Source of the DNA: Methanosarcinales archaeon
GTDB lineage: Archaea; Halobacteriota; Methanosarcinia; Methanosarcinales; Methanogasteraceae
DNA length: 6,022 bases
Direction: 5' to 3'
Assembly (NCBI GenBank): GCA_030609345.1
Contig: JAUWCK010000072.1
Span: forward strand, 1 to 6,022
In this document: piece after piece, positions 1-6,013 of the stretch
How the letters are laid out: each line of letters starts with the position of its first letter
Position numbering within the stretch: the first letter of the stretch is position 1
Translations under genes and position numbers: made by a program
Notes under the pieces: generated by a model
Told to the model about the DNA's origin: nothing
What the model saw: the letters and a program-made list of their open reading frames with translations, nothing else
Database searches by the model: none

Positions 1-189
1 GTGCTGTACTCATATCTGGACTTTGACAAGTATACACGGAAATATACGGTGTCGAAGGCGAGCCGCAAGACAGCGAAGATTGAGATCAGAGTTAAGCCGT
101 CGCTGTATGCAGACGAAGTGCGGCGCGGGCTGGTTGAGTACCTTGCAGTATTCAATGAGGTCATCGAGGTCGGCGAGGTGGAACAATGA
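1..189 (+). CDS. Short unrecognised protein, probably 5'-truncated by the window edge
   Basis: The frame is open from the first base and ends at TGA 187-189, giving 62 residues if the GTG at base 1 is a true start. That GTG may equally be an internal valine codon, so the gene should be treated as possibly partial. The protein is charged and has an alternating stretch (KIEIRVKPSLYADEVRRGL), suggesting a small alpha/beta fold. There are no cysteines, no membrane segment and no motif I can assign to a family. Its stop overlaps the start of the next gene by ATGA (186-189), with GAGGTG at 175-180 acting as that gene's ribosome binding site, so the two are very likely co-transcribed and translationally coupled. 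Genes next to annealing proteins are often exonucleases or single-strand binding proteins, but nothing here shows either. Function unknown. Confidence 0.6.
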   Translation: MLYSYLDFDKYTRKYTVSKASRKTAKIEIRVKPSLYADEVRRGLVEYLAVFNEVIEVGEVEQ

Positions 190-1565
190 AACCAGACCCG
201 ATAACGCGGTATATCAAAGTCAAAGACTTGGTGATGCACTTCAAGGTGAGCACGCTCGCGCTGGCAGAGGCGGATGAATATGGGTGGATGAGAGCAGGCG
301 AGGGCGCTCTCATCTGCGAACACGGAGAGCAGATATACCCAGTACTGCTCAAAAACGAGAATGGCGCAACAGAGATCGCTTGCGGCTGCCCGGCATGGCA
401 ATTTGCGAAAGGGAATGATGGATGCAAGCATGTATCAGCATTTCTGAAACGGAAAGAGCCGGTACAGAAGCCGATCTCGGATGAGGTAGCGCGGGACTTG
501 ATGAAAGCGGGGTGGACAGGCGGCAAAGGCAACCTACAGCCACCAGCCGCAGAGATAGAGACGACATCAGAACCGGAACTTGGAGAGAAGATATACACGC
601 GGTCGTGCCCGCACTGCGACGAGAAGATTGGGGGCACAGACTTGGACGCGGTGAAGCGGATGCACAGCGCGCATATCGCAGAATGCGAGCAGAACCCGGC
701 AAATAAGAAGGCATCACCGGCAACCGGTAACAAAACGAAACCGGTTGCAACAGCGAAAGCAGATAGTTCCAAACCGGAACGAACTGGTGCAAAAAGCGCA
801 ACAGTTGAAATAGCACAAGAGGAGAGAACCATGACAACAGAACCAGAACAGAAGAAGACGTACACGCACCCGGACGGGACAGAATTCGAGACGGCAGAGG
901 CATTTATGAGTTACGCGGACGATCAGAAGGCAGCGGAGAGGACGGCGGAGACCAAAGCACTCATTACGCCAACACAGCCAGATCGTGCGACACAGGTCGT
1001 GCCTGCATGGTCTGATGAGCAGATAGACGTCATGCGAAAGACTGTTGCGGAGCGGGCAACACCTGCGGAGTTCGCTTACTTTTTGAATGTCGCCGCTGCA
1101 ACCGGTCTTAACCCATTTTTGAAGGAGATATACTTCATGAAGACCGATAAGGGGCAAACGTCCATTATCACGGGCAGGGACGGGTACTTGACTATCGCAA
1201 AGCGGGATCCTCGATTTAGGGGGATTCAGTCAATGGAGGTCTGCAAGTCTGATGAATTCGAGATGGGCTTTGCGGATGGGCGGATGGACGTGACAAAGCA
1301 CCAGATCACGGACTTCAAGGATCGCGGAGAGATAATTGGAGCGTGGTGCCGGGGACAGATGGAAGGACAAGACCCCGTAACGATATTCGTGTCGTGGGCG
1401 GAATACAATAAAGGCGGCAATATCTGGAAGATGTACGGGTCGGCGATGATCAGGAAAGTCGCTGAGGCGATGGTATTGAAGCGCATTGCAGGGATTAGCG
1501 GACTGGTGACAGAAGCGGAAATATCGGGCTCGCGGACGCTGGTTCTGGATGCTGAAATGGTGTAG
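186..1565 (+). CDS. Bet/RecT-family single-strand annealing protein with N-terminal SWIM and zinc-finger extension
   Basis: A 459-residue protein. Residues about 275-445 match the phage Bet/RecT recombinase family, which anneals complementary DNA strands and promotes strand exchange. Supporting segments are ATPAEFAYFLNVAAATGLNP, ITGRDGYLTIAKRDPRF, GAWCRGQMEG, TIFVSWAEYNK and a C-terminal helix SAMIRKVAEAMVLKRIAG. The N-terminal half is unusual. C66-x-C68...C80-x-H82 fits a SWIM zinc motif, and C141-x2-C144...H160-x2-H163 resembles a CCHH zinc finger. A low-complexity Lys/Ala/Thr-rich linker (about 170-215) follows. Typical Bet proteins are roughly 250-300 residues, so about 215 residues are extra. 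The start at 186 is supported by GAGGTG at 175-180 and ATGA coupling. An internal ATG at 831 has its own strong ribosome binding site. No exonuclease partner is visible in the window. The Bet assignment is confident; DNA or protein binding by the zinc motifs is inference. Confidence 0.9.
   Translation: MKPDPITRYIKVKDLVMHFKVSTLALAEADEYGWMRAGEGALICEHGEQIYPVLLKNENGATEIACGCPAWQFAKGNDGCKHVSAFLKRKEPVQKPISDEVARDLMKAGWTGGKGNLQPPAAEIETTSEPELGEKIYTRSCPHCDEKIGGTDLDAVKRMHSAHIAECEQNPANKKASPATGNKTKPVATAKADSSKPERTGAKSATVEIAQEERTMTTEPEQKKTYTHPDGTEFETAEAFMSYADDQKAAERTAETKALITPTQPDRATQVVPAWSDEQIDVMRKTVAERATPAEFAYFLNVAAATGLNPFLKEIYFMKTDKGQTSIITGRDGYLTIAKRDPRFRGIQSMEVCKSDEFEMGFADGRMDVTKHQITDFKDRGEIIGAWCRGQMEGQDPVTIFVSWAEYNKGGNIWKMYGSAMIRKVAEAMVLKRIAGISGLVTEAEISGSRTLVLDAEMV
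720..748 (+). repeat. 9-bp perfect inverted repeat in the linker-coding region
   Basis: GCAACCGGT at 720-728 is the exact reverse complement of ACCGGTTGC at 740-748, separated by an 11-nt A-rich loop. It lies in the low-complexity linker coding region about 85 nt upstream of the internal start at 831. It could be an mRNA hairpin, a protein-binding palindrome left from a former intergenic region, or chance. A further AACCGG occurs at 772-777. Confidence 0.4.
818..833 (+). promoter_or_regulatory. Internal ribosome binding site and alternative ATG start for the annealing domain
   Basis: AGAGGAGAG at 818-826 sits 4-6 nt upstream of ATG 831-833, which is in frame and corresponds to Met216 of the long protein. 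The spacing and strength equal those of the GGAGG site used by the next gene. Initiation here would give a 244-residue protein starting MTTEPEQKK, the ordinary size of a stand-alone Bet protein. The sequence shows the site directly; its use in vivo is inference. Confidence 0.5.
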
Positions 1566-1601: not shown

Positions 1602-2012
1602 ATGATCACGCTGACAAAAACGCAGTATGCGTATGCTGTTGCGCTCGATGAGAATACGATGACCACAGGCGCTTTGGCGGATCGTTTTGGAGTTACGTGT
1701 GGGGCGGTGGGGCAACAGATACATAGATTGCGTGCCAAAGGGGTGGTTGCGTCCGGGAGGAGGGAGGGCGGTAGTCGGCATCACCAGCACTGGTTGTTAA
1801 TGCCGCTTTCGGAATTGGAGTGCAACGCATTAGAGGTAGTAGGGGGCGCGTGCAGACACATATCCGTCGCTGAATTGGAGTATGCGGCGGGACTTCGTGG
1901 AGGCGGGTGGACGGGGCGGGAACTGGCAGACAAGTTTCGGGAGCGATACCCGGATCGGAGATGCATGAAGGGGATTATCTTCAAGGCTCGGCGGCTTAGG
2001 TATTGCAGGTGA
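1602..2012 (+). CDS. Small DNA-binding protein with two HTH-like segments
   Basis: A 136-residue basic protein with a winged-helix type helix-turn-helix at about residues 16-50 (TTGALADRFGVTCGAVGQQI, then HRLRAKGVVASGRR), the usual layout of MarR/GntR-like or phage regulators, in which a Leu/Ala-rich first helix precedes a recognition helix. A second possible HTH lies near the C-terminus (WTGRELADKFRERYPDRRCM, then KGIIFKARRLR). The middle contains LEVVGGACRHISVAELEYA with no assignable motif. The start is fixed by GGAGG at 1591-1595, 6 nt before the ATG. The gene lies 36 nt downstream of the annealing protein and is the last gene before a strong terminator, so it probably belongs to that operon. 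A role as repressor or replication regulator is inference; the sequence shows only DNA-binding character. Confidence 0.75.
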   Translation: MITLTKTQYAYAVALDENTMTTGALADRFGVTCGAVGQQIHRLRAKGVVASGRREGGSRHHQHWLLMPLSELECNALEVVGGACRHISVAELEYAAGLRGGGWTGRELADKFRERYPDRRCMKGIIFKARRLRYCR

Positions 2013-2030: not shown

Positions 2031-2045
2031 TCCAGCGACAGACAT

Positions 2046-2138
2046 GGACGTGTATGCTTCCGGTTTGTCATTCCGGTTGTTTGCACGTCCTTTGGCGGTG
2101 GCAGCTTCGTACCCTGCCACTGTTTTTACTCTTTTTTT
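2046..2138 (+). ncRNA. Candidate small structured RNA or structured 3' UTR
   Basis: GGACGTGTA 2046-2054 pairs with TGCACGTCC 2082-2090 (9 pairs with one G-U). Inside it, CCGG 2060-2063 can pair with CCGG 2073-2076. A second hairpin (2096-2122) with T-tracts ends the unit. With a TATA-like site at 2022-2030 this could be an independent RNA of about 90 nt; otherwise it is the folded 3' end of the upstream operon. A 48-codon open frame (ATG 2044 to TGA 2188-2190) crosses it but runs through the terminator and the next TATA box, so I prefer a noncoding reading. I recognise no known RNA family. Confidence 0.35.
2096..2138 (+). terminator. Strong intrinsic-type terminator ending the left operon
   Basis: GTGGCAG 2098-2104 and CTGCCAC 2114-2120 form a perfect 7-bp stem, extendable to 9 pairs with 2096-2097 and 2121-2122, around a 9-nt loop. 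It is followed by five T (2123-2127) and seven T (2132-2138). Both a hairpin and multiple T-tracts are present, so termination is likely whatever the mechanism. Confidence 0.8.
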
Positions 2139-2298: not shown

Positions 2299-3990
2299 AT
2301 GTTAAATAAAACAACAGATAGCGAGAGCTATCACACGATACTAACAGCAGCACACGCATACACCGAGCGCGGGTGGGTGGTCCACCAGCTCTCGTCGCCA
2401 AATTCGCCGGGCAAAAGTCCCGGCAAACGACCGCTTGACACGGGATGGCAACGCGCCACAGAACCACCAACCGAAGACAAACTCAACCAGTGGTTTGGAA
2501 GGGGCAACCCGAAGGAGCATAATATTGGGCTGGTATGTGGAGAGGCATCAGGGGTCACTGTGATCGATTTAGACCGACAGATATATGCGGGCATGTTCAA
2601 TGGTGTGACGACACTGAGGTCATCCCGGACACCCGGCAGAAGCCATGTATATTTCCAATATAACCCCCGTCTGGCGGCGAGTAAGCATCATAATTTAGGG
2701 ATAGAGGTGTTATCAAATGGCAATAATGCAGTCATGCCGCCGAGCATACACGAGTCCGGAGGGGTGTATAAATGGAATGACGTGACCGCGCCAATCGCAG
2801 AGATGCCAAAAGAACTTGAGACCCAACTTCTTAACCTGTTTATGCGGGAGGGAGAGCTTAACGCCCTGGTGCGGAAGTGCAGACCGTGTTTCAGCCGACT
2901 GTTCAAAAAAGAAGTTCGCGAGGTGACAGACTTTCACGGGGCGGGCGGACGAGAGCTCATGGTGGCATGGGGGGCGGAATTGAAGGCAGCCGGCGCGACA
3001 CTTGCAGATGGGGAGATGTGGGCGAAGATCATATACGGCGATAAGTTTGACCGCGGGCAGACGCTCACAGAATGGAGGAATATAGACAAGAAGAAGACGT
3101 GGAGGTGTGAGACTATAGCAGGCAAGCTCAGCAGTATAATTGAATGCGACTGCTCGCGGTGCAAGTGGCGCAACACGCCACCGACTACCCCAGCACCGGC
3201 TCCGACTACCCCAGCTACCCCCGCAGCGGCGAGTGGCAAAAGTGGCAAATACGAAGTTCTGAATTATAAGACCTTCAGGAAACTTATGACCCGCCACCCG
3301 GAGACCGCGTCACGCGCTATAGATATGCCAGGAGATGGTGTCGTTTATGAGTTATCTGGAGCGGCATTTATCGGCGACGCTCTGGAGCTGGACGTGATTA
3401 TACCGTACCGCGGGGATGATATGCTGCCCCGTCGGGTGATAAGTCCTGAACTGCTGCTCGGATATATTGAGAAAGTTGAAACGCATGAGGCAGGCGATGA
3501 CACCACGTACAGCCTGTATATCCGTCGAAAGGTTCTCCGGTTCTCGATTAGCGAGATATCAGACTTGGCTGCATGGAGAAAAAAACTGGTGCAGTGCGGT
3601 CTGATTGTAGGGTTCACGACACGCTCGAACGAAATGCGCGAGCGGTGGGAAGAGGCACTTGTCAGGGTTGTGAAACAATCCGAGATAGTGTGGGAGGCGC
3701 ATCTGTCAGAAGACGATATGGCAGCGGATTTGATCATGGATCGGCTTATGCATTTGCCAGTCGTTTTAGCGAATGCTGATTTTGTAGATGACCGCGCCGT
3801 TCTAGATCGAGATGATATGTATTGGATTTCGACGACGACTGTTGATGACATCGTCGGGCAAATGAATGATCGGCGCCGCCTGTCCGAAGTGCAGCGACTA
3901 CTAAGCAAATATCTTGTCAAAAGTAGTTCACAGAGGACGTTTGATGGTAGGCGGTTCTCGATCTGGTTCTTTAAGAGGTGGGCAGAATGA
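2299..3990 (+). CDS. Bifunctional primase-polymerase (Prim-Pol, archaeo-eukaryotic primase superfamily)
   Basis: A 563-residue replication protein. Residues about 10-185 form a Prim-Pol catalytic domain. NIGLVCGEASGVTVIDLD contains the metal-binding D90-x-D92, S115-H116-VYF supplies the s-x-H nucleotide-binding motif, E136 in GIEVLS is the likely third acidic ligand, and VMPPSIHESGGVYKW (145-159) is the typical closing motif. Members of this family synthesise primers and often extend them as DNA polymerases. A helical region follows (about 210-270), then a possible zinc cluster C270, C283-x-C285-x2-C288, a Thr/Pro/Ala linker (293-311), and a C-terminal domain ending in a probable winged helix (about 505-560, YWISTTTVDDIVGQMNDRRR then SEVQRLLSKYLVK). 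Many plasmid and viral relatives carry a fused helicase; this one does not, and a separate helicase lies downstream. The codons for the linker contain a sequence shared with the downstream repeat array. Family assignment is confident; the C-terminal domain functions are inferred. Confidence 0.9.
   Translation: MLNKTTDSESYHTILTAAHAYTERGWVVHQLSSPNSPGKSPGKRPLDTGWQRATEPPTEDKLNQWFGRGNPKEHNIGLVCGEASGVTVIDLDRQIYAGMFNGVTTLRSSRTPGRSHVYFQYNPRLAASKHHNLGIEVLSNGNNAVMPPSIHESGGVYKWNDVTAPIAEMPKELETQLLNLFMREGELNALVRKCRPCFSRLFKKEVREVTDFHGAGGRELMVAWGAELKAAGATLADGEMWAKIIYGDKFDRGQTLTEWRNIDKKKTWRCETIAGKLSSIIECDCSRCKWRNTPPTTPAPAPTTPATPAAASGKSGKYEVLNYKTFRKLMTRHPETASRAIDMPGDGVVYELSGAAFIGDALELDVIIPYRGDDMLPRRVISPELLLGYIEKVETHEAGDDTTYSLYIRRKVLRFSISEISDLAAWRKKLVQCGLIVGFTTRSNEMRERWEEALVRVVKQSEIVWEAHLSEDDMAADLIMDRLMHLPVVLANADFVDDRAVLDRDDMYWISTTTVDDIVGQMNDRRRLSEVQRLLSKYLVKSSSQRTFDGRRFSIWFFKRWAE
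3206..3221 (-). repeat. Inverted 16-nt copy of the downstream repeat, inside the primase linker
   Basis: CTACCCCAGCTACCCC at 3206-3221 is the exact reverse complement of GGGGTAGCTGGGGTAG at 4041-4056. A shorter relative, CTACCCCAGC, lies at 3185-3194. Here the sequence encodes part of the Thr/Pro/Ala linker. It may be a second binding site of the same factor, or the source or product of repeat spreading; low-complexity coincidence is also possible. Confidence 0.55.
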
Positions 3991-4088
3991 GAGTGTTTTT
4001 TACCAGCTACTATAGGGAGGTTGAACGTAGTAGCCGAAATGGGGTAGCTGGGGTAGCTAACAGTAGCAGTAGAGGTAGTGTGGGGTAG
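3987..4088 (+). CDS. Small 33-residue ORF coupled to the primase stop and running into the repeat array
   Basis: The ATG at 3987 overlaps the primase stop as ATGA, and GAGGTG at 3975-3980 is 6 nt upstream. This is nearly the same arrangement that starts the annealing protein at 186, so initiation is plausible. The peptide begins MRVFFTSYYREVERSSRNG and then reads repeat-derived GVAGVA before stopping at the TAG of a GGGGTAGCT repeat (4086-4088). It resembles no family I know. It may be a short coupling peptide, or the stub of a gene whose remainder was replaced by the repeat array. A T-run at 3996-4001 lies inside it. Confidence 0.35.
   Translation: MRVFFTSYYREVERSSRNGVAGVANSSSRGSVG
3996..4001 (+). 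terminator. Short T-tract just after the primase gene
   Basis: Six T residues follow the primase stop by 5 nt. Archaeal polymerases may pause or end at such tracts, but it is short and there is no stem upstream. Weak candidate. Confidence 0.2.
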
Positions 4089-4138
4089 CTGGGGGGGTAG
4101 CTGTCAGCTACCCCCCCTATAGTTATGACCTACCCCCC
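4005..4138. repeat. Iteron-like GGGGTAGCT array with central palindrome, candidate origin or operator
   Basis: GGGGTAGCT occurs at 4041-4049, 4050-4058, 4082-4090 and 4094-4102, and inverted as AGCTACCCC at 4106-4114. Degenerate copies are GAGGTAGTG 4072-4080, AGCTACTAT 4005-4013 and CCTACCCCCC 4129-4138. The arms GGGGGGGTAGCT 4091-4102 and AGCTACCCCCCC 4106-4117 form a perfect 12-bp inverted repeat around GTC. An outer pair, CTATAGGG 4010-4017 and CCCTATAG 4115-4122, is also exactly inverted. Four G-runs within about 57 nt (4041-4097) could form a G-quadruplex. Direct and inverted repeats next to a Prim-Pol gene are typical of plasmid and viral origins, but an operator for the RHH-helicase operon fits too. 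The stem is not followed by a T-tract, so it is not a classical terminator. Confidence 0.7.
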
Positions 4139-4157
4139 TCCAACCAGTCCAGCCTCG

Positions 4158-4166
4158 CATATATAG
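4158..4166 (+). promoter_or_regulatory. Secondary TATA-like site upstream of the RHH gene
   Basis: CATATATAG lies about 65 nt upstream of ATG 4228 and would start transcription near 4187. It is a weaker candidate than the site at 4192-4203, which is better placed for the gene. The stretch around it (4141-4227) is A/C-rich with very few G and shows no other structure. Confidence 0.3.
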
Positions 4167-4191
4167 AAAACAAGAACCGAAGACACACCAA

Positions 4192-4203
4192 AATGTTTAT
4201 AAC
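4192..4203 (+). promoter_or_regulatory. TATA-box promoter placed for a leaderless transcript
   Basis: AATGTTTATAAC contains TTTATAAC at 4196-4203. A start about 25 nt downstream falls at about 4224-4228, at or next to the ATG at 4228. No Shine-Dalgarno site precedes that ATG, which agrees with leaderless translation. The 10-mer AATGTTTATA also occurs at 2155-2164 upstream of the primase. Confidence 0.6.
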
Positions 4204-4227
4204 CAACCACAACAGACAAAGACAACA

Positions 4228-4362
4228 ATGACGACAAAACACATATCCATCAGACCGGATCAAACCGAATGGCTCAACAATAACGACAAGAGCCTGTCAA
4301 AATACGTGCAGCGAAAGATCGATGAAGACATGGGACGTAAAAGCAATGACAATCAGGAATAA
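4228..4362 (+). CDS. Small ribbon-helix-helix-like DNA-binding protein
   Basis: A 44-residue protein, MTTKHISIRPDQTEWLNNND to the end at NDNQE. The layout is that of a CopG/Arc-type ribbon-helix-helix: an N-terminal strand with alternating polar and hydrophobic residues (KHISIRP, 4-10), a first helix (DQTEWLNNN, 11-19), a turn, and a second amphipathic helix (SLSKYVQRKIDEDM, 22-35). Such proteins bind operators as dimers and commonly act as copy-number repressors, autoregulators or antitoxins. ATG 4228 is the natural start because it lies about 28-32 nt after a TATA box. The gene overlaps the helicase gene, which suggests one operon. The repeat array directly upstream is an obvious potential target, but that is inference. 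No toxin-like partner is visible. Confidence 0.7.
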   Translation: MTTKHISIRPDQTEWLNNNDKSLSKYVQRKIDEDMGRKSNDNQE

Positions 4363-6013
4363 GATATATGGAGGTGCCGGGTGCGGCAAGACATATCACC
4401 TGCTATCAGAACTCGAAGGACTACTCGGAGCGGGTGCAGACATCAATGCCGTCTCAATGCTGACACTCACGAGAGCAGCAAGAAAAGAGTTTGTGCAGCG
4501 AGCATACAAACTCACAGGCAAAGCAGAAAAGAACCTCCAGTGGTTCGGCACGATGCATCAAATAGCGTGGAGAATGCTAAAACTGTCCTATAAGCAACAC
4601 GCGGTGGATAGAAAAGCAATCGCCAACTTTGCTGACGAATATGAGCCACAACCAACAGGCAGGCTGCCAGCACTCACGAAGATCGATCAAGTGAGACGGA
4701 ACTGTATGCATGAGAACAGTCCAGACGGGCTTATCAGAACGCACCGTGCGACTGGCATCAACTTCCAGTATCGAGACCGGATGACTCACAAGTACAAAGA
4801 CCTCCCCATCTCTCAAATCGTATCCTTCAGCAAACAGTGGCACGCGTTCATGGATCATGAAGACCGTTTTGACTTCACGAAGATAATCGAGATTGCAGTG
4901 AGAGAGGTTGCACAAGGCGATACACAGGCGATATTCGAGTATATGTTCGTTGATGAGTTCCAAGACTTCTCGCCCCTCCAGCACGCTCTATATCAAGCCT
5001 TAGCAAAAGACATGAACGAGGTCTGGTTTTGTGGTGACGACTGGCAGGTAATTTACCGCTTCGCGGGCGCATCACCAGACCATCTCATCAATGAGACTGT
5101 ATCACCCGGCAGAGAAGTTATCCTGCCACGAACGTACAGGTACGGGCGTGCCGGGCTCGAGAACTCACTACGATATATCCGGAAGCTCGCTGTACTCAAG
5201 GAGCGAGACATCCACGCAGCAGACCACAAAACAAATGTGCAATATTTGCACGGTGCAAAGTGGCAAGACCATATCCATACCGACAACACAACGTCCGCGT
5301 ACCTCACGCGCACCAACAGCCAAGCCAAAGAGATCGCTGCTATCCTAAAAGCGAAGGGGCTAATATACCGCGTATTAGGGCAGTCATATTCAAAATCAGC
5401 CCACCTGCTACAGGTATATAACTCACTCGCCACTCTCGAACGTGGAGACGTGTTAGTGGATGATGACATCCGCACACTCATTTCCGCACTGCCAGCAACC
5501 ACCATGATCGATGCACAACAGACCACGATAGACGGGCAACACAGCAAACACAAAATACAACTCCTCAAGCCCGGCACGAAGGCGAGAGTAGCGTCCCCGG
5601 ATTACCTTGAATCTCTCAACAAACAATTCTACACAGCAGCCGAGTTTGCAATGTCATTTCTCTCGAACATGACATGGCGAGACGTGATGCTGATAGACCA
5701 CGTCAAAGGTATGCCAGAGTTTATCGCAGAAAAAGGACTCAAGTACCCCACCCCTCACGACGTGAGAATTAATCACGTTGTGGGCACGATACACAAATTC
5801 AAGGGCAACGAAGCCGACAATGTATTCCTGTTCAAGCAACTCCCGTACCCGATATCCGACAATGTTCTGTACGGTAATGCTGCAACACGGGACGCAGAGC
5901 GGAGAACATTCTACGTCGGCGCAACTCGAATGAGGCACAACCTGTACGAAGTGAATGCGTTCTTCAGAGACTATCGCGGTAATCTCCTGCCGAGTATAGA
6001 CGAGATTTTATAG
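4346..6013 (+). CDS. UvrD/Rep-like superfamily 1A DNA helicase
   Basis: A 555-residue protein with the full superfamily 1 helicase motif set (numbering from ATG 4346): Walker A GGAGCGKT (9-16), motif Ia LTLTRAARKEF (from about 39), WFGTMH (66-71), motif II VDEFQD (202-207), motif III GDDWQVIYRFAGA (230-242), motif IV LPRTYRYG (260-267), motif V VGTIHKFKGNEADNV (from about 479), and motif VI ERRTFYVGATRMR (518-530). It should hydrolyse ATP and translocate 3'-5' along single-stranded DNA, and could serve as replicative or repair helicase for the element. It is shorter than bacterial UvrD (about 720 residues), so the accessory subdomains are reduced. An earlier in-frame ATG at 4322 would add MKTWDVKA and overlap the upstream gene by 41 nt. 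I prefer 4346 (17-nt overlap) because the Walker A strand then begins close to the N-terminus. Neither start has a good Shine-Dalgarno site. A further ATG at 6019 suggests another gene beyond the window. Confidence 0.92.
   Translation: MTIRNKIYGGAGCGKTYHLLSELEGLLGAGADINAVSMLTLTRAARKEFVQRAYKLTGKAEKNLQWFGTMHQIAWRMLKLSYKQHAVDRKAIANFADEYEPQPTGRLPALTKIDQVRRNCMHENSPDGLIRTHRATGINFQYRDRMTHKYKDLPISQIVSFSKQWHAFMDHEDRFDFTKIIEIAVREVAQGDTQAIFEYMFVDEFQDFSPLQHALYQALAKDMNEVWFCGDDWQVIYRFAGASPDHLINETVSPGREVILPRTYRYGRAGLENSLRYIRKLAVLKERDIHAADHKTNVQYLHGAKWQDHIHTDNTTSAYLTRTNSQAKEIAAILKAKGLIYRVLGQSYSKSAHLLQVYNSLATLERGDVLVDDDIRTLISALPATTMIDAQQTTIDGQHSKHKIQLLKPGTKARVASPDYLESLNKQFYTAAEFAMSFLSNMTWRDVMLIDHVKGMPEFIAEKGLKYPTPHDVRINHVVGTIHKFKGNEADNVFLFKQLPYPISDNVLYGNAATRDAERRTFYVGATRMRHNLYEVNAFFRDYRGNLLPSIDEIL

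Follow-up and report, generated by a model that had tools for sequence, protein, structure and literature searches.

Directly behind a primase-polymerase (Prim-Pol) gene of a Methanosarcinales archaeon, in a stretch of 6,022 nucleotides (nt) of contig JAUWCK010000072.1 that we refer to as the window, a dense array of short repeats in two orientations is found, and this array is probably an iteron-type replication origin of an archaeal mobile element, bound by the C-terminus of the Prim-Pol itself. The repeats, their excess over chance and their position were observed in the window, and a minority of relatives, well in excess of control, carry similar arrays in the corresponding position. This comparison of sequences supports the origin reading already proposed in an initial annotation of the window. 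The window probably represents part of a mobile element, and the nearest named relatives of its Prim-Pol are in Methanoperedens and Methanosarcina assemblies, which makes an element of a Methanosarcinales-type archaeon likely.

The repeat array of the window

The features on which the argument relies are the following:

2299-3990, plus strand: Prim-Pol gene, 563 amino acids (aa), with PF09250 at residues 18-171 and a linker near residues 295-308
3185..3221, minus strand: three inverted GGGGTAG copies within the Prim-Pol gene, encoding a Thr/Pro/Ala linker between the N- and C-terminal parts
4005..4138, no strand assigned: iteron-like array, proposed origin core, delimited by repeat density against shuffles
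4009..4123: outer inverted pair (4009-4020/4112-4123) around the array, 92% complementary
4041..4058, plus strand: two tandem exact GGGGTAGCT copies (starts 4041 and 4050; Tandem Repeats Finder period 9)
4082..4090, plus strand: GGGGTAGCT, exact
4094..4102, plus strand: GGGGTAGCT, exact
4106..4114, minus strand: GGGGTAGCT, exact inverted
4128..4136, minus strand: GGGGTAGCT inverted, with one mismatch and the core GGGGTAG intact
4091..4117: perfect palindrome with arms of 13 bp (4091-4103/4105-4117) and one base between them
4139..4227 (89 nt): AT-rich stretch next to the array, with an AT content of 60% (98th percentile within the window)
4195-4200: TATA-like TTTATA for the next operon, read by eye
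4228..4362, plus strand: 44-aa open frame, a possible small regulator
4322..6013, plus strand: UvrD-type superfamily 1 helicase gene

The array spans +15 to +148 relative to the Prim-Pol stop and lies, as the initial annotation had it, between the Prim-Pol and helicase genes. The four exact direct copies of GGGGTAGCT and the single exact inverted one were recovered where that annotation had placed them, and two further sites missing from it were found: the mismatched inverted copy at 4128..4136 and an exact inverted GGGGTAGCT at 3213-3221, inside the Prim-Pol gene. The 12-bp inverted repeat with a 3-nt centre that it described is the same object as the 13-bp palindrome, in which the last direct copy meets the first inverted one; these stand 3 nt apart in the window, with no AT-rich spacer between direct and inverted copies. 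Likewise, the exact outer pair CTATAGGG/CCCTATAG is contained in the longer arms at 4009-4020/4112-4123. These arms might form a 115-nt stem-loop, although the minimum-energy folds predicted for 3985-4150 do not pair them.

The enrichment is well beyond chance. Allowing up to one mismatch, GGGGTAGCT had 7 matches in the window, whereas 200 shuffles averaged 0.71 and never exceeded 4, and the core GGGGTAG occurred 9 times in the 6022 nt (0.39 expected), with 4 direct and 2 inverted copies in the array. The stretch 4005-4138 contained 41 duplicated 8-mer pairs; 1000 local dinucleotide shuffles yielded 2.2 on average and never more than 20, and the best 135-nt stretch in 100 whole-window shuffles reached at most 10. 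By this score no other part of the window is as dense in repeats, in agreement with the initial annotation.

Arrays at the 3' end of primase genes in relatives

The first set of relatives comprised 7 loci from IMG/VR and genome contigs, leaving out the weak bacterial loci L025 and L026, and 30 loci from 185 genomes belonging to the same order as a Methanoperedens assembly. These genomes gave 37 Prim-Pol matches, of which 30 were taken, 4 were already in the set (L019-L022) and 3 short pieces were omitted. Removal of the near-duplicates L079 (of L023) and L068 (of L067) before counting left 35 relatives; broken or truncated Prim-Pol frames (e.g. L024, L071, L083, L087) were retained and counted as misses, and the helicase matches L094-L097 were kept outside the analysed set. 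The first loci read showed short repeats in both orientations at the Prim-Pol 3' end, with a motif that differs from locus to locus: TGGGGAAA follows the gene in Methanosarcina sp. KYL-1 (L022), and the gene itself contains ATGACGCA in a Methanoperedens assembly (L020) and CAAATTC in Methanosarcina sp. UBA293 (L023).

An array was scored when, within 600 nt of the stop, a 7-9-mer had at least 4 non-overlapping copies, in both orientations, with a Poisson p below the threshold. The choice of zone followed inspection of L018-L024, and that of the criterion followed a listing of motifs for the whole first set; counts were made at four thresholds in the first set and at three in the held-out set described below, and we emphasise the strictest. 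Half-overlapping windows of the same loci, including our window's own, served as controls in the first set. At p<1e-8, 11/35 relatives passed, compared with 7/442 control windows (Fisher 1.5e-9); at 1e-7, 1e-6 and 1e-5 the counts were 12, 15 and 17 of 35 against 20, 35 and 69 of 442. Among the 28 loci of the L064-L093 series, added after the idea arose, 6 passed p<1e-8 (p 3.3e-5). In 14/15 mapped rows the exact motifs recurred only 0-2 times in the remainder of the locus. By a repeat-density statistic, the top window of the locus fell inside the zone in 11/35 relatives (4.3 expected, P 0.0027), compared with 4/85 for control ORF (open reading frame) stops (8.9 expected), but Fisher's combination of circular-shift P values for this statistic was not significant (0.22). 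One control window, at +1431 of L024, passed 1e-6 and failed 1e-8; it probably marks the true 3' end of the broken gene of this locus.

The one set untouched before its test was drawn from 392 genomes of the phylum, in which a profile search gave 64 matches: 46 new genes were taken, 15 had been seen before and 3 were omitted (internal stop, duplicate copy, short). After removal of L131, whose zone was only 878 nt, 45 genes, found mostly via their helicase part so that not all need have a Prim-Pol domain, were tested with the criterion unchanged, and 12/45 passed p<1e-8 compared with 25/582 control windows (p 2.1e-6). At 1e-7 the figures were 16/45 and 46/582, and at 1e-6 they were 21/45 and 76/582. 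For other ORFs with 200 codons or more, the 3' end passed p<1e-8 in 2/123 cases in the first set and 4/153 in the held-out set, as against 11/34 and 12/45 for the primase genes (one first-set zone under 900 nt was left out of this comparison). The enrichment in the held-out set and over other ORFs therefore indicates that the association of arrays with the primase 3' end replicates, even though most primase genes do not reach the strict criterion. For the alignment with relatives that the initial annotation had proposed, this means that the position of the array recurs and the sequence of its motif is not conserved; since the motif varies while arrays recur, the use of motif conservation as a refuting test would have been misleading.

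Strong repeat families were also seen in some held-out control windows, with 14 copies of GTATACA in L148, 12 of CTACGTA in L171 and 12 of GTTCCTGA in L138; these may be other binding arrays. In L018, about five tandem 22-nt ATTGGTCCTATATCCCGGGTAC units lie at 8588-8750, ~500 nt behind the Prim-Pol gene, a ACGAGTAA array in two orientations lies nearer the gene, and tandem units of ~20 nt occupy 9550-9690, in a small ORF ~1.4 kb behind it. In L080, very dense repeats (score 552), possibly a tandem or CRISPR-like array, were detected ~2.8 kb upstream of the Prim-Pol stop in gene orientation.

Architecture of the arrays

Counting the window, 24 arrays passed p<1e-8: 12 after-gene, 10 in-gene and 2 of mixed placement. 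Those behind genes tend to form two opposite blocks, with 21 orientation switches compared with 34.7 expected and none of 5000 shuffles as low, whereas those within genes show no such tendency (31 switches, 33.7 expected). In 8/11 after-gene arrays of relatives (L022, L077, L091, L153, L157, L160, L161, L168) the spacer at the largest switch was at or above the 94th AT percentile of its locus; it was not AT-rich in the after-gene arrays of L018, L150 and L164, nor in the three in-gene arrays examined (L064, L090, L092). Seven in-gene arrays were translated, including that of L090, which narrowly fails p<1e-8. By eye, all fall in linker-like stretches that are followed by a C-terminal segment of ~40-100 residues, and in L020 the array starts 20 residues after the last Pfam match.

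The window combines both placements: the stretch that codes for the C-terminal domain is enclosed by the three linker copies of GGGGTAG on one side and the six copies after the gene on the other. Under the tentative layout proposed below, the binder would thus move together with its sites as a single cassette. Coding alone might also account for the linker copies, since the same string can be read as linkers of this kind in several unrelated viral contigs. In 17 IMG/VR contigs GGGGTAGCTGGGGTAG was present, and several of these stretches are readable as repeats of Ala-Thr-Pro or Val-Ala-Gly; five (L003, L004, L005, L011 and L016) repeat the 9-mer in longer tandem runs. The GGGGTAGCTGGGGTAG stretch of L017 lies in a frame that, by eye, resembles a DnaG-type primase.

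The Prim-Pol as candidate initiator and a proposed mechanism

The six window proteins were scanned against Pfam and PHROGs. In the Prim-Pol, PF09250 was the only domain found: no helicase domain was detected and the C-terminal 255 aa had no Pfam match. Residues 469-563 appear to form a winged-helix-like C-terminal domain, which bears a suggestive structural similarity to the C-terminal origin-recognising domain of the initiator of Staphylococcus aureus pathogenicity islands (SaPIs) and phage-inducible chromosomal islands (PICIs). This domain is a better candidate for the binder than the 44-aa frame, which the initial annotation had taken for a ribbon-helix-helix (RHH) protein that might bind the array. 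Repressors of the pRN1 type belong to the CopG/RHH type. The open frame at 4228-4362 is present, but no Pfam family and no solved-structure sequence matched it up to E = 10, so that its RHH identity found no support; it may nonetheless bind the array. Located downstream of the Prim-Pol and with no family match, it is at most a candidate counterpart of the pRN1 repressor gene.

For the window we infer that the Prim-Pol C-terminus binds the array, that the DNA is melted and primed, and that the site acts as an origin, as follows. The C-terminal winged helix would bind the GGGGTAG(CTG) copies in both orientations, and the bound array would gather several Prim-Pol molecules on the DNA. With their aid the duplex might open at the palindrome or at the AT-rich flank 4139-4227, a possible melting zone. 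The Prim-Pol domain would then synthesise primers, and a helicase, either the UvrD-type neighbour or that of the host, and host polymerases would carry on. Each element would have a repeat sequence matched to its own initiator.

More tentatively, and with somewhat more doubt than confidence, we propose a hitherto undescribed origin layout common to mobile elements of Halobacteriota. In it, each element would have an iteron array of its own at the 3' end of its primase(-helicase) gene, placed either directly after the gene or within the coding sequence of a linker that adjoins the C-terminal part. If true, this position rule (an element-specific repeat in two orientations at the primase 3' end) would make candidate origins predictable in uncultured archaeal elements, would supply a short DNA and a protein domain whose binding can be tested directly, and would provide candidate vector origins for methanogen genetics.

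Alternative explanations

The array might instead be an operator or copy-control site, where the repeats, bound by a protein that the element encodes, would serve to control the downstream helicase operon or the Prim-Pol gene. Operators typically contain inverted repeats, and a TATA-like box and a short ORF come after the array. Moreover, the pRN1 replication operon contains a repressor gene together with orf904 (PMC4234260). However, arrays recur at the primase 3' end and 10/24 are inside coding sequence, an unusual place for an operator, and the small ORF had no detectable RHH match; we thus regard this explanation as unlikely. Plasmid centromere sites are also arrays of short repeats, so the window could carry a partition or incompatibility site bound by a ParB-like or other segregation protein. 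This we hold to be quite improbable, as no partition gene was found among the six window proteins with Pfam and PHROGs (the relatives were not searched for such genes) and the array recurs beside the primase gene in relatives.

A role at the RNA level, as a terminator, a structured 3' untranslated region of the Prim-Pol mRNA or a G-quadruplex, is suggested by the GC-rich palindrome behind the stop codon and by the plus strand of the array, which folds better than shuffles (z -2.48 as RNA, -2.85 as DNA). Against it, no T-run follows the array, the terminator scan of 3900-4400 was empty, and arrays inside genes are unlikely terminators. The G-quadruplex envisaged in the initial annotation does not hold up: the window array offers four G-runs only with one 28-nt loop, and has no four-run pattern at loops of up to 25 nt (runs of 4) or up to 12 nt (runs of 3). 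Such a pattern was present in 1/23 arrays examined and is therefore not a property common to them, while their longest perfect hairpin stem varies from 4 to 12 bp. We consider an RNA-level element highly improbable. Least probable of all is a neutral expansion of repeats without function, be it a minisatellite or an inserted palindromic element; repeat families do occur in some control windows (7/442 and 25/582), but both sets are enriched in arrays at the primase 3' end, also relative to the 3' ends of other ORFs, and this, together with the two-block order of the arrays behind genes, argues against it. The terminator, quadruplex and neutral readings are together disfavoured because motifs vary, no quadruplex or long hairpin is common to the arrays, and arrays lie within genes.

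Other features of the window and searches for close relatives

Two further open frames precede the Prim-Pol gene:

186-1565, plus strand: frame that matches RecT and, below threshold, SWIM
1602-2012, plus strand: small helix-turn-helix-like ORF

The former would encode a RecT-type annealing protein that starts with a SWIM-type zinc finger, an unusual fusion if the sub-threshold match is real. In the gap between the latter and the Prim-Pol gene (2034-2125, plus strand) two strong hairpins are followed by T-runs, a candidate terminator or small RNA; the RNA fold of 2034-2140 had a z of -5.2, with 0/200 shuffles as stable, and no Rfam match at gathering scores. Rfam at these scores and tRNA searches of the whole window likewise gave no match, and a sigma-70 promoter scan of 3900-4400 was empty.

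Close relatives of the window were scarce. Single-protein scans of IMG/VR with the Prim-Pol and with the helicase gave no locus, and the alignment-based search of the same database gave one locus, L018, for the Prim-Pol and none for the helicase. Phage records had no match to the window by protein or DNA, the plasmid search gave one weak match in Deinococcus (26% identity), and a profile search of solved structures with A2 gave no match up to E = 0.1. The C-terminal region of the Prim-Pol alone retrieved only P0001, whose whole protein is 99% identical to that of the window. P0002 and P0003 share the domain layout of the window protein.

Comparison with known replicons

In a search of the open-licence PMC literature, no iteron origin was found described at an archaeal primase gene. 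Classical iteron plasmids (RepE/Rep_3-type) differ from the window in their initiator, as a Pfam scan of the six window proteins gave no Rep_3 match. In pattern-2 SCCmec (staphylococcal cassette chromosome mec) elements (Cch2/CCPol-MP), which are bacterial, the polymerase partner is of family-A type. Like the window, they have direct repeats behind the replication operon, and these are bound by the C-terminal domain of the helicase and serve as the priming site (PMC7581432); here, unlike our proposal, the binding domain is borne by the helicase. Phage P4 alpha, to which the proposed role of the Prim-Pol can be likened, is a primase-bearing replication protein that binds origin repeats via a winged helix, but its primase is of the Toprim type (PMC4234260). 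The large Methanoperedens plasmids (HMp) share the host group and have a predicted origin with repeats; this lies, however, at the Orc1/Cdc6 gene and not at a Prim-Pol, with flanking repeats and a 1743-nt AT-rich intergenic region (PMC9674854).

PICI origins have two iteron sets around an AT-rich region, as in the after-gene layout (PMC6092414). The pri-rep-ori modules of SaPIs and PICIs (SaPIbov1, EcCICFT073) appear, by sequence, to share with the window short element-specific iterons directly behind the initiator gene, and with several relatives, though not the window, two repeat sets flanking an AT-rich region; their initiator has a C-terminal origin-recognising domain (PMC7581432), to which the likeness of the window protein is suggestive. 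On the other hand, the elements described here are archaeal, the window Prim-Pol has no recognised AAA+/SF3-type helicase core, and the AT-rich stretch is beside the repeat blocks and not between them. The nearest archaeal precedent is pRN1, of the orf56/orf904 family of Sulfolobus plasmids, in which the putative origin is behind a prim-pol gene whose product has a C-terminal winged helix; the 166 bp behind orf904 are essential and include a 100-nt stem-loop that is variable in sequence between plasmids (PMC4234260). The window array fits this ~170 bp interval, in position only, and the poor conservation of that origin part between plasmids (PMC4234260) is a further likeness; the outer inverted pair that brackets 115 nt in the window might correspond to the pRN1 stem-loop, although its arms do not pair in the predicted folds. 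Unlike the window Prim-Pol, orf904 carries an SF3 helicase domain, and the pRN1 origin has a stem-loop; according to its authors it is devoid of iterons, and they suggest stem-loops as the assembly site of such primases (PMC4234260). Because no helicase domain was recognised and the AT-rich stretch is not central, the window array is, by the tests made here, a full member of neither group; it resembles PICI origins by its repeats and pRN1 by its primase.
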